Below are positions 20,156 to 26,220 of a stretch of 55,705 bases of DNA, one piece after another; within the stretch, counting starts at the first letter, position 1; the number at the start of each line of letters is the position of its first letter. Under the pieces are notes generated by a model. It was given only the letters and a program-made list of their open reading frames with translations. It was not told where the DNA came from and ran no database searches. Origin of the DNA: a bacterium. GTDB taxonomy: Bacteria; Armatimonadota; Zipacnadia; Zipacnadales; UBA11051. The DNA is taken from assembly GCA_021372615.1 (NCBI GenBank), contig JAJFUB010000007.1:1-55705 (forward strand), read 5' to 3'. The translations under genes and the position numbers were made by a program.

Positions 20156-20878
20156 TCACGGCAGGTCGCCAGGCGTCTCCCACAGCGGCGCCTCGCGCGG
20201 GAAGAGGTTGTTGACCTGCAGCCAGTTCACGGCGTCCGGGGCGCCCGGAGGGTAGGGGCGCCCCAGGCCGACCGCCACGATGACCTCGCGCGACTTGGCG
20301 AGGGCCTCCTGCAGCCGCGTCACCAGCGCCTCGTTGGGAAGGTGCGCGTGCCCGACGTACAGGCGCTTGTCGGTCACCCCCAGGTCGGCCGTGGCTCCTG
20401 CCTGCAGCGTCACTCGGATCTGTCGGCTGCCGCCCTCGCGCTCCACGAAGTGGAGCGTCGGGGGCGCGGGCAGCCGCAGGTAGGCCAGCGACGTGGCGCC
20501 CTGTCCCGGGTCGGTGCCGAAGCTCATGCCGCCGATGGGCCGCAGTTCCGGGCCAAAGGCCTCGTGCAGCGTGGCGGCGGCGTGGGCCGACAGCAAGGCC
20601 CAGAACTCCTCCGGCGCTAGTGCGGCCAACGGCTTGAGGCCATAGCGGTCTATGGTCCAGTCCTCGACATGGGGCGGCGGCGCCTCGGCTTTCTGGGCGC
20701 CCGCGAGGTGCACGCGGCGCCCCAGCGCGAACGGCCCGCCGTTGCGGGCCAGCATGTTCACGCCGAGGTTGCCCCGCTCGAAGACCGGGCGGACGTGCCG
20801 GCCGTCCGCCGCGCAGATCCCCGCAGTGCAGATGTAGCCCCGCCTCATGCGTGTCAGATGGGTGACGATGATCTCCAC
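20156..20878 (-). CDS. Dual-OB-domain (DuOB-like) protein
   Basis: About 240 residues. The start resembles proteins annotated as dual OB domain-containing: EIIVTHLTRMRRGYICTAG followed by ADGRHVRPVFERGNLG, corresponding to the cAGi...gW(I/V)RPV pattern. The rest is beta-rich (LYVGHAHLPNEALVTRL, VIVAVGLGRPY). OB folds usually bind nucleic acid or nucleotides; these proteins recur beside DUF488 genes, as here, but their biochemical role is not established. The start is GTG 20878 with AGGGGGG about eight bases upstream. The open frame extends further but would overlap the DUF488 gene without similarity. Last gene of a minus-strand run. Confidence 0.65.
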   Translation of the reverse strand: MEIIVTHLTRMRRGYICTAGICAADGRHVRPVFERGNLGVNMLARNGGPFALGRRVHLAGAQKAEAPPPHVEDWTIDRYGLKPLAALAPEEFWALLSAHAAATLHEAFGPELRPIGGMSFGTDPGQGATSLAYLRLPAPPTLHFVEREGGSRQIRVTLQAGATADLGVTDKRLYVGHAHLPNEALVTRLQEALAKSREVIVAVGLGRPYPPGAPDAVNWLQVNNLFPREAPLWETPGDLP

Positions 20879-20889
20879 GGCAGGCCCCC

Positions 20890-21327
20890 CTAGAGGTGGA
20901 TGATGCGGCCCTCGCTCCAGGCGTCGCACAGGTACTCGGCTACGAGACGCCGGTGGCAGTGGTCCGGCTCGGCTTCGGAGCACAGCAGCACCGTCGGCTG
21001 CTCGAACTGCGCGCGGTCCAGCCACGTCTCCGGCGCGCGCTCGGCCAGCAGGCGGCGGAACTGCACCGCGTACTCGTCGAAGGTGATCTGCTTGTCCTGG
21101 TAGGCCGACAGCAGCTCCGCCGAGGGGGCCAGGCGCGGCTCGGGCACGTAGTCGGCATCGCAGATCTCGCGCAGGAAGTAGCGCAGGTCGTCGCGCTTGC
21201 TGAAGCCGGCGAGCTGCGAGGTGTTGTTCAGCCGCACGTCAATGACCCGGCGGATGCCCCGGAGCTTCAGACGCTCGAAGAACTCCTCGGCTGACTTCTT
21301 GGTGTGGCCGATCGTGTAGATCTCCAT
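20890..21327 (-). CDS. DUF488-family protein
   Basis: 145 residues. DUF488 motifs run in order: IYTIGHTKKSAEEFFERL at the N-terminus, RVIDVRLNNTSQLAGFSKRDDL, and the C-terminal TVLLCSEAEPDHCHRRLVAEYL with the conserved Cys, Glu and CHR triad. The family has no proven reaction; the strict LLC.E....CHR signature suggests an enzymatic site acting on nucleic acids or nucleotides. The start overlaps the upstream DUF488 gene by 61 bases, and GGGGAG precedes the ATG. Together with the neighbour it makes two diverged DUF488 copies in tandem, followed by the dual-OB gene. Confidence 0.85.
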   Translation of the reverse strand: MEIYTIGHTKKSAEEFFERLKLRGIRRVIDVRLNNTSQLAGFSKRDDLRYFLREICDADYVPEPRLAPSAELLSAYQDKQITFDEYAVQFRRLLAERAPETWLDRAQFEQPTVLLCSEAEPDHCHRRLVAEYLCDAWSEGRIIHL

Positions 21328-21875
21328 GGCCGCTCCCCATCATCCTCGAACAGGCTCTGCTGGCCGCCGGTGCGCTCGAACTCCGCCGCCGCGGTCAGGT
21401 CGGCATCGCTGGTGACGCTGCCGTCGCCGCGCAGGTGCAGGACCGTCACGCCTCGCTCGCACAGCACGCGTGCCAGGAGGAGGTGCCGGTGGCAATCGCC
21501 CGGGTCCTCCTCGCTGCATAGCAGCGCCACGCGGCGCTCACGCGCGATCTCCAGCAGACGTGCCAACCCGTCGCGGAAGCGGTCCGACGCCGCGATCAGG
21601 TCGTACCGCACGTGCCCGTCGGCGTCGTAGAAGCCCGGCACGTTGGGCATGCCGCCGAGGGCCTCGCCCAGGTAGGCGTACGCCAGCCCCGCCTGGGCCA
21701 CGGCGGCCTCCAGGGGGGCGCGGTTGAACTGCCCGGCGTACTTGGAGTACGGACTGGAGCGCACATCTGCCACGACCGCGATGTCGTGCGCGGCCAGCAG
21801 CTCCAGCAGGCGCTCCACGGTGTGGTTCGAGTGGCCCACAGTGTAGACCGTCAGGGCGTCGGCGGGCGCTACCAT
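21267..21875 (-). CDS. DUF488-family protein with clamp-motif-like tail
   Basis: 202 residues. VYTVGHSNHTVERLLELLA, VVADVRSSPYSKYAGQFNR, YLGEALGGMP and VALLCSEEDPGDCHRHLLLARVL show a full DUF488 domain of the longer type. After the domain, FERTGGQQSLFEDD resembles the QxxLF beta-clamp-binding signature; this is motif resemblance only. The final 20 residues (Ser/Arg-rich) overlap the start of the next gene by 61 bases and look unlike a natural tail, so a lost stop or a frameshift near 21327 is possible. ATG 21875 overlaps the sialidase stop. No strong ribosome binding site is seen. Confidence 0.82.
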   Translation of the reverse strand: MVAPADALTVYTVGHSNHTVERLLELLAAHDIAVVADVRSSPYSKYAGQFNRAPLEAAVAQAGLAYAYLGEALGGMPNVPGFYDADGHVRYDLIAASDRFRDGLARLLEIARERRVALLCSEEDPGDCHRHLLLARVLCERGVTVLHLRGDGSVTSDADLTAAAEFERTGGQQSLFEDDGERPWRSTRSATPRSQPRSSSSV

Positions 21876-23503: not shown

Positions 23504-24061
23504 TCAGGGCTCTTCGGCTTCGGCCAGGAGCCGCTCCAGATCATCCATCACGCCGAGTCGCAGCGCCCAGAGGCGGAGATAGGGGAGGTCGAGATTGCGG
23601 CGCACACGCAGGATCATCGAGACATCGTTGAGCTGCATCTCACTGCGGCTGTCGGCGGCCCAGCGTAGCTTGGAGAGGACGACATCCTCGGGGCTGGCCA
23701 CCCAGACGGCTACGCCTTGGTAGTCAGCAGCGATCCGCCGATCCAGCGCTTCGCGGTCGTACGGGTCATTGCCCAGGCGCCAGAAGTCCACTTTCTCGCC
23801 ATAGTCAAAGTGGATGATGTTCCACATCGTCCCCCGCTGCAGGCCATCCTCAACCATCTCGCGGCTGATGTAGTAGCGGTCCTGGAAGGCCTGCAGCAGG
23901 CAGTCAACGTGTTGCTGCTCGTAGGAGATAACGACATCAATGTCGTGTGTGGAGCGAAACACCCCCCAGATCGAGGAAGCGTGGGAGCCCACCAGCATCC
24001 ACCGGACGTCGAGCCCGTCGAGCGTCTGGGCTACCTCTGCCAGCACCTCTAGGTCTTCCAC
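23504..24061 (-). CDS. Nucleotidyltransferase-fold protein (AbiEii/DUF6036-like)
   Basis: 185 residues. The Pol-beta-like nucleotidyltransferase signature is visible: MLVGSHASSIWG followed after about a dozen residues by STHDIDVVI, with a third acidic residue in EKVDFWRLG. VASPEDVVLSKLRW is typical of AbiEii-type and related toxins and of minimal nucleotidyltransferases. These proteins transfer nucleotides to RNA, protein or a partner antitoxin. The start codon overlaps the end of the small upstream gene by 13 bases, the coupling expected for a two-component module. Whether it is a toxin is inference from fold and pairing. Confidence 0.75.
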   Translation of the reverse strand: MEDLEVLAEVAQTLDGLDVRWMLVGSHASSIWGVFRSTHDIDVVISYEQQHVDCLLQAFQDRYYISREMVEDGLQRGTMWNIIHFDYGEKVDFWRLGNDPYDREALDRRIAADYQGVAVWVASPEDVVLSKLRWAADSRSEMQLNDVSMILRVRRNLDLPYLRLWALRLGVMDDLERLLAEAEEP

Positions 24062-24267
24062 GCAGCGAACCTCCGCCGGGCCTCTGCCTGCTGCTCTTCG
24101 AGCGTCCAGTCTGGGTGGTCGAGCTTCACCCCCGCGAGGGCCAACTCCAGGACACGGCGCCGGGCGCGGGAAGCCGCCTCCAGCTTCTGTGCCGGTGTCA
24201 TCTGGCGCAGGATGTCCTCATAGACCCGCCGAGCTTCGGGGGCCATGAGACGATCCTCGTACTTCAT
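24049..24267 (-). CDS. Small helical partner of the nucleotidyltransferase
   Basis: 72 residues, charged and almost wholly helical: MTPAQKLEAASRARRRVLELALAGVKLDHPDWTLEEQQAEARRRF. Small proteins with this pattern (TPAqKle...HPdws.eq...ar.rF) are commonly encoded just before nucleotidyltransferase-like genes, and I infer a regulator or antitoxin-like partner. No DNA-binding motif is evident. It starts at 24267, one base from the ThuA stop, and its end overlaps the nucleotidyltransferase start, so the two are probably translated together. Confidence 0.7.
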   Translation of the reverse strand: MKYEDRLMAPEARRVYEDILRQMTPAQKLEAASRARRRVLELALAGVKLDHPDWTLEEQQAEARRRFAAWKT

Positions 24268-24921: not shown

Positions 24922-26220
24922 TCATTGCTCCCTACCGGCGGGGGTTATCTGCAGGGCCGTCCCAGACGCTGCAATCACGTGTCGTGCGACGTACTGGAGT
25001 ATCTCGATGTCGTAGAGCAACTCGTCAACAGACGCGGAAAAGGGCAGCAAGTACGTGTCCTCGTCGTCGTCCTCCATCTTTGTGTGCACGATCTTACAGC
25101 GGATATCATAGATCCTGAGCGCCAGCTGTTCTCGAAGGTCGACTTGCAGGTTCCGAAGCTGGACCAACTTGTCGCTGATCCCCGTCTTCCGGCCGATGAA
25201 GTCGCACCGCGCTTCATCCTCCTCCAGGAAAGCCCTCACGGCTTGCTCATCCAGGCAGGCCAACAGAACGGCCTTCAGGCTGGAGCGCTCACTCTGTCGC
25301 GAGTTGATGGCCGGGCCGGCGGCCGAGATCAGGCGCGCGATCTCTGTGTCGCTCTCAACTCTGAATGCGGGATTCCTCAGGATGTTCCTGATACGGTTCG
25401 TTGCCTCCGCCGCTGTATGGACAGGGAAGAAGAACTCAATGGCCTGGTAGAACGCGTGGTACTGCAGCAAAGGTAGCCTGCGCGCTGACATGCCATACCA
25501 GTACAGAGACAGGGGCTCGTGGTTGTACTCACACCTGGGAAAGACCAGTGACGCAGCCGGATGGGGCACCCGACGGGGCATCCGCGCCCGTTCTCGGCGT
25601 CTGACGGGTCCGAGGGCCACGCCTGTCGTCGCATCGAGTTGGAAGAAGACGGAGTCGGCGACCCTGACCATCGTCTCAAGCGCTTGGTCGTGCGTAGCGG
25701 CGCCCACGCCTGTGATGGCAATGGACATCCCTGAGCGGCCTGGAAGACGTCGTGGCGCCATGGCGGTGAAGGCTGCCGACGGATTGCCCAGCCTGATCGT
25801 TACGTCTGCCAGGGGCCCCTGGCCGGTAAGCTCTATGGCCTGGATATCGTCACCCTCCTGGTCCTGTCCAGTAATCCGTCGCCACAGCCATCTCGCGGGC
25901 GCGATAAGGTCGCCAAGATCGCGGATACTACACTCAATGAGCCTGTTCTCCAGGGACCAGATGGCATCGTACCCCGCCAAGTACGAATAGCGCTCGAACC
26001 CGATCGCCAGAAGGCGTCTGGCATGGCCAATGTTCGAGAGTGGCAGGTCCACGAGGTCCGGGCCCTGAGGGATGAGGACACACCGTGTGACAGTCCCATC
26101 ATCCAGCGTCGTCTGTGTGAGTTCATGTCTTCGGTTAAGACACCGCTCGCTGAGTTCGACCTCCAGCGCAGCCCACTCCTCATCGGGGCCTTCTGGTGCG
26201 TCGGCTGCCGGCCCAACCAT
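24922..26220 (-). CDS. HEPN-like C-terminal domain protein of unknown function
   Basis: 432 residues, not recognised as a whole. The C-terminal third (about 300-425) is helical and contains LRIYDIRCKIVHTK, which fits the R-x4-6-H motif of HEPN ribonuclease/ApeA-like domains and the usual KIxH ending of such helices. The N-terminal half is mixed alpha/beta (VTRCVLIPQGPDLVDLPL, GMSIAITGVGAATHDQALETMV). AGGGGGG is placed seven bases before ATG 26220. Base composition looks less GC-rich and the codon choice less biased than in neighbours, which suggests recent acquisition. A role in defence or RNA cleavage is inference from the motif and context. Confidence 0.6.
   Translation of the reverse strand: MVGPAADAPEGPDEEWAALEVELSERCLNRRHELTQTTLDDGTVTRCVLIPQGPDLVDLPLSNIGHARRLLAIGFERYSYLAGYDAIWSLENRLIECSIRDLGDLIAPARWLWRRITGQDQEGDDIQAIELTGQGPLADVTIRLGNPSAAFTAMAPRRLPGRSGMSIAITGVGAATHDQALETMVRVADSVFFQLDATTGVALGPVRRRERARMPRRVPHPAASLVFPRCEYNHEPLSLYWYGMSARRLPLLQYHAFYQAIEFFFPVHTAAEATNRIRNILRNPAFRVESDTEIARLISAAGPAINSRQSERSSLKAVLLACLDEQAVRAFLEEDEARCDFIGRKTGISDKLVQLRNLQVDLREQLALRIYDIRCKIVHTKMEDDDEDTYLLPFSASVDELLYDIEILQYVARHVIAASGTALQITPAGREQ

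Follow-up and report, generated by a model that had tools for sequence, protein, structure and literature searches.

What three tightly packed genes accomplish together, two of them coding for DUF488 proteins and one for a dual-OB (DuOB) protein, is the question raised by a short segment of the Armatimonadota contig JAJFUB010000007.1 (assembly GCA_021372615.1), of which we analyzed a stretch of 55,705 nucleotides, hereafter the window. All three genes lie on the minus strand. DUF488-A (A; 21267..21875, ATG start, 202 aa), a putative rhodanese-phosphatase-type cysteine enzyme, overlaps with its 3' end the 5' end of DUF488-B (B; 20890..21327, ATG start, 145 aa) by 61 bp (21267..21327), an arrangement pointing to translational coupling. 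Eleven bases (20879..20889) separate the stop of B from the start of the DuOB gene (C; 20156..20878, GTG start, 240 aa). This is the layout described in an earlier note on the sequence, two overlapping DUF488 genes followed after 11 bases by a dual-OB-like gene, and its coordinates and spacing proved exact. An identical 61-bp overlap is found in several distant loci of the same A-B-C order (L004, L007, L023, L025, and L050), while in loci of the C-A-B type it typically spans a few base pairs. The frames are all open and their GC3 (0.87–0.95) matches that of most adjacent genes; thus, the trio looks like normal coding sequence, with no sign of recent foreign origin. Upstream, on the same strand, a BNR/sialidase-like gene overlaps the trio by 7 bp, and the surrounding genes are mostly of carbohydrate and housekeeping type, with no repair or known defence genes among them. 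An empty-site comparison with G001, whose BNR gene is 65% identical, showed no flanks shared with the window that would record the history of insertion. Elsewhere in the window, a DUF6036 nucleotidyltransferase gene overlaps a 72-aa gene without Pfam match in a toxin-antitoxin-like arrangement (23504–24267, minus strand). A 432-aa protein, also without Pfam match (24922–26220, minus strand; GC3 0.73, below its neighbors), carries near its C terminus an R-x4-H motif (RCKIVH) and is possibly HEPN-like.

The overlap with the BNR/sialidase-like gene and the native composition would suit a chance or housekeeping neighborhood, in which the three genes have no joint function. We consider this scarcely credible, given that the trio persists, in one or other of two gene orders, in about a dozen phyla and that its members co-evolve; the co-occurrence survey in effect already refutes it. 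Scanning one genome per species, we collected 44 close relatives of B, and in 30 of these loci A, B, and C stand side by side (11 in the A-B-C order of the window, 19 as C-A-B), a count that includes one frameshifted trio (L031) and one cut by a contig end (L052). The other loci comprise A and B only (5/44, two at a contig edge and one, L065, decayed), C and B with a DUF4326 protein (2/44), B with C on the opposite strand (1/44), and B alone (6/44, two being truncated genes). To offset the bias of a survey seeded with B, the DuOB model was run against 291 genomes of the window's phylum: 33 contained matches, and both DUF488 genes lay within about 1.5 kb in 25 of the 30 loci read. The earlier note had made its grouping depend on the genes co-occurring elsewhere, and they do so from either starting point. 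Distances among the three proteins are also correlated (32 loci with all three; Mantel correlations 0.65 for A-B, 0.53 for A-C, and 0.51 for B-C, with none of 2000 permutations as high), although shared host ancestry may lie behind part of this signal. The trio occurs in Armatimonadota, Chloroflexota, Acidobacteriota, Planctomycetota, Verrucomicrobiota, Myxococcota, an archaeal bin, and others, a spread to be read with the reservation that some bins possibly hold contaminant contigs. No fixed fourth partner emerged, as clustering of the neighboring genes gave lineage-specific repeats only. In Archangium violaceum, two DuOB genes on opposite strands (L034:1-657, minus, and 1070-1756, plus) accompany a single DUF488 pair. 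Overall, A, B, and C form one evolutionary unit, and the proposal that they also form one functional unit is strongly supported by the conserved linkage, the overlap, and the co-evolution.

DUF488 is a very common family for which, to our knowledge, no reaction is established. Both window proteins score well above the curated Pfam cut-off of 22.2 bits for DUF488 (PF04343), A with 77.3 bits (E = 2e-21) and B with 84.9 bits (E = 8.9e-24), and B also exceeds the cut-off for DUF488-N3a ("active") at 45 bits. Each carries the cysteine signature already pointed out in the earlier note: C120-x-E122-x5-C128-H129-R130 in A (CSEEDPGDCHR; 21486..21518, minus strand) and C116-x-E118-x5-C124-H125-R126 in B (CSEAEPDHCHR; 20950..20982, minus strand). 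The five defining residues are identical in all 39 A orthologues; the B motif is intact in 45 of 48 orthologues, the other three being truncated or frameshifted genes, and in all 12 plasmid copies examined. Such conservation suggests that both enzymes are kept active, rather than forming an active/inactive pair. Sequence searches of solved structures, with single sequences and with profiles, gave no credible match for any of the three proteins, and NCBIfam gave no match. The AlphaFold model of B (pLDDT 91.4) displays an apparent PTP-like core, with C116 at the end of a strand (E112–116). It matches SsoPTP, a phosphatase of PTP fold from archaea (Z 7.7, rmsd 3.2, 112 residues aligned), and further matches are to diphthine synthase and CbiL methylases; every Z is below 8, the range in which, by the tool's guidance, likeness may reflect no more than a common arrangement. 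The canonical tyrosine phosphatase signature, C-x5-R, was considered for B and discarded, since B has C116-x9-R126 and a second cysteine, C124. In 2023, Burroughs and Aravind reportedly placed DUF488 in a superfamily grouping that is in line with the matches of the B model, and are said to have predicted DNA-end processing in conflict systems. The window shares with their account a DUF488 protein that combines a cysteine active site with an apparent PTP-like core, as suggested by the B model.

The third protein is more divergent. Against Pfam DuOB, the window C scores 24–25 bits (E = 2e-5 to 4e-5) and so narrowly misses the cut-off of 27, while an iterated profile places it in the DuOB orthologue family with 212 bits. 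The dual-OB fold that had been proposed for it is supported at the family level, 33 of 35 C orthologues matching Pfam DuOB, and by a confident OB-type AlphaFold model (pLDDT 93.8). The N-terminal OB of the model superposes on a telomere end-binding protein (Z 7.2–7.5, rmsd 2.2, about 78 residues aligned), and the model also matches the LEF-3 ssDNA-binding protein (Z 7.0, 163 residues, rmsd 6.0), SSB, and HIN domains; the whole-length LEF-3 and HIN matches have an rmsd of 5–6, and in Foldseek the TM-score relative to query length reaches at most 0.39 among the matches listed. The first OB is clear in the model, and the second is indicated mainly by the family model and these looser whole-length matches. 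Invariant residues are few (G20, R30, and E72, with C17, A19, P31, S130, L131, D170, and L205 near-invariant), and so small a conserved set suggests a specific binding site. One Armatimonadota lineage has in-frame fusions of DuOB with dihydrodipicolinate reductase, DapB (L023:8452-10071, L025:2614-4188, and L029:3214-4836); L120, L121, L122, and L124, with DuOB frames of similar length, probably share the fusion. In L023, L025, and L029, an M16 peptidase gene flanks the module on its other side, so the trio seems to have inserted in front of dapB. A link to lysine synthesis was set aside, as the position of the module between the peptidase gene and dapB makes a read-through fusion the simpler explanation.

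What, then, does the unit do? One answer is already catalogued. In PADLOC, the window A matches PDC-M45B (E = 2e-54, residues 9–182) and B matches PDC-M45C (E = 3.9e-58), both over nearly their full length; the DuOB orthologues match PDC-M45A in 25–26 of 35 cases, and the window C, a PDC-M45A homologue too divergent for these models, gives no PADLOC match up to E = 1. The module is therefore not new, and neither is the idea of defence: it is the existing, unvalidated candidate defence system PDC-M45, with the same three adjacent families, to which the window adds a divergent member, in the order A-B-C as against the also common C-A-B and with a DuOB protein outside the reach of PDC-M45A. We take PDC to stand for "phage defence candidate," a phrase found alongside PADLOC in papers. 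PDC-M45 rests on association, and we know of no phage test or demonstrated function for it. No description of the trio or of PDC-M45 was found among the papers searched. Under a dedicated anti-phage role, DuOB would recognize the nucleic acid of an invader, which the two DUF488 enzymes would modify or damage; alternatively, they would disable the infected cell. The patchy distribution of the trio is in keeping with this (DuOB in 33 of the 291 phylum genomes, B in none of the six other genomes of the window's family), as are its presence on plasmids and the company it sometimes keeps. Within two genes of the genomic loci we found SspB and SspC (L037) and an HmaA-like helicase (L046); TcmP and DUF5131 adjoin B or the trio in L035 and L092, and DUF5131 alone does so in L038 and L063. 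C-A-B trios neighbor a type III CRISPR locus on the Allochromatium plasmid pAt1 and CBASS with TcmP/DUF5131 on an Agrobacterium plasmid. TcmP/DUF5131 (TcmP being PADLOC PDC-M30A) is a separate, optional neighbor, absent from the window. Enrichment of the trio in defence islands is thereby suggested; yet a known defence gene lies within two genes at a minority of the 44 genomic loci, most others having ordinary neighbors, and the surroundings in the window are, as described, carbohydrate and housekeeping genes. Phage records held no DUF488-B homologue at E = 1e-5. Moreover, the anti-phage reading leaves unexplained the solitary copies of B in formaldehyde and repair operons described below, and we regard it as possible but somewhat unlikely.

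B without its partners is common on plasmids, a B homologue being present in 125 plasmid records. Most of the copies examined belong to formaldehyde-detoxification operons that also include uvrA and/or uvrB. The order is uvrA-B-frmR in enterobacteria and Aeromonas, B-uvrB-frmA-fghA in Comamonas, and B-uvrB, with frmR, frmA, fghA, and uvrA downstream, in Acinetobacter. Plasmid formaldehyde-resistance operons with frmR, frmA, and fghA are known (pVU3695 type; PMC13029678), in a source that mentions neither DUF488 nor the uvr genes; they share with the window a DUF488-B homologue 52% identical to its B, which in these operons stands alone, without DUF488-A and DuOB, as against the trio of the window. 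Some mobile operons also carry DUF3422, cydAB, and frmR (K. pneumoniae pKp55, L086:1101-13072; L107, L110, L113, and L094). While the remaining operon genes are homologous across plasmids (frmA 92–97% and uvrB 71–78% identity), the Acinetobacter operon B is 71% identical to the B of Acinetobacter C-B-DUF4326 clusters and 57% identical to the other operon Bs. A single clade of operon-borne B is rejected (AU test, P = 0.00018, the group having been named after the first tree was seen). DUF488-B was thus recruited into formaldehyde operons at least twice, from different lineages, an observation new here; that it was supplied twice implies that its activity matters in those operons. This recruitment into formaldehyde/NER operons is not known to figure in the 2023 work of Burroughs and Aravind.

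The simplest reading of a B that stands next to UvrA/UvrB under aldehyde stress is, we infer, action on damaged DNA, though it could act in these operons on a small molecule, and operons that carry B only bear on the full trio indirectly. In one such scheme, the plasmid B would act away from DNA, detoxifying the adduct that formaldehyde forms with a thiol or small metabolite, and the trio would carry out a similar metabolic clean-up. The operon genes other than uvrA and uvrB do serve formaldehyde oxidation and redox; however, B adjoins uvrA or uvrB in all three operon types and the DuOB protein is left without explanation, which makes this scheme very unlikely. Beside the chromosomal loci, searches for uvrA, uvrB, and frm genes gave nothing except generic dehydrogenase matches and one weak ABC-type match, so the association with repair comes from the plasmids only. 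One locus (L063:25-2223) has a truncated DUF488-B between a gene for a PNKP ligase domain of the end-healing type and a DUF5131 gene. The earlier note had suggested modification, repair, or defence involving nucleic acids: the general role remains plausible, its defence part is already catalogued but finds few defence-adjacent loci, and repair is the better new lead.

A further hint comes from loci in which A is replaced. Small plasmids of Klebsiella, Citrobacter, Acinetobacter, and Moraxella, as well as two Betaproteobacteria, have the genes arranged as C-B-DUF4326. The DUF4326 protein stands there beside DuOB and DUF488-B in the place of A (L097:6441-7049 and L061:8432-9058) and carries an N-terminal minimal SLOG domain (mSLOG), matched clearly in the copy from Moraxella and weakly in one further copy. 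The filling of the A slot by SLOG-DUF4326 is a new observation here, and the swap of partners with a DUF4326 of the same clade is a second likeness to the account of Burroughs and Aravind. DUF4326 has been proposed to process terminal phosphates on the ribose of ADP-ribose (PMC9503650), and the step of A may therefore be of that type. This replacement, together with the likeness of the B model to PTP-fold phosphatases, lends itself to a reading in which A and B act on a nucleotide-like small molecule, such as a ribose phosphate or a derivative of ADP-ribose or NAD, with DuOB as sensor or regulator, the module clearing or generating a signal or toxic metabolite. An OB-fold partner whose matches, among those listed, are mainly nucleic-acid-binding proteins and a B that adjoins uvrA/uvrB both point instead to DNA, and we find the small-molecule reading distinctly unlikely.

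Our tentative preference, held at somewhat less than even confidence, is that the trio is a three-protein DNA-processing module that repairs chemically damaged or blocked DNA. In such a module, DuOB would bind nucleic acid through its two predicted OB folds, its probable target being a DNA end or DNA that is single-stranded or damaged, using the small conserved residue set (C17, G20, R30, E72, S130, and D170). The C-x-E-x5-C-H-R site of DUF488-B would then act on a nucleotide or DNA end that bears a blocking or damaged group, taking this group off or transferring it. In concert with B, A, or SLOG-DUF4326 in some lineages, would carry out a second step, on the group once released or on one adjacent to it. 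DNA that is damaged or blocked would thereby be repaired, a benefit under aldehyde damage and possibly also where phage or plasmid conflict inflicts damage. DNA as the substrate, the chemistry, the formation of a complex, and the division of labor are all putative elements of this scheme. A more specific version, rather unlikely as a whole, would make DUF488-B an unrecognized DNA-damage enzyme working alongside UvrA/UvrB on aldehyde-type adducts, crosslinks, or blocked ends. In this version, the trio would be a stand-alone, horizontally spread form of the same chemistry in which DUF4326/SLOG can replace one enzyme.

The selective benefit of the trio may be DNA repair, phage defence, or both. 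For a module present in about a dozen phyla, repair of DNA adducts offers a sharp alternative to the current phage-defence guess. The recruitment of DUF488-B into repair operons is the most interesting new lead, and it makes the function of DUF488 testable in E. coli; formaldehyde/NER operons on well-sampled enterobacterial plasmids are a tractable place to find the substrate of this family. If B does repair aldehyde damage, this would help to explain why uvrA and uvrB travel on mobile formaldehyde-tolerance islands.
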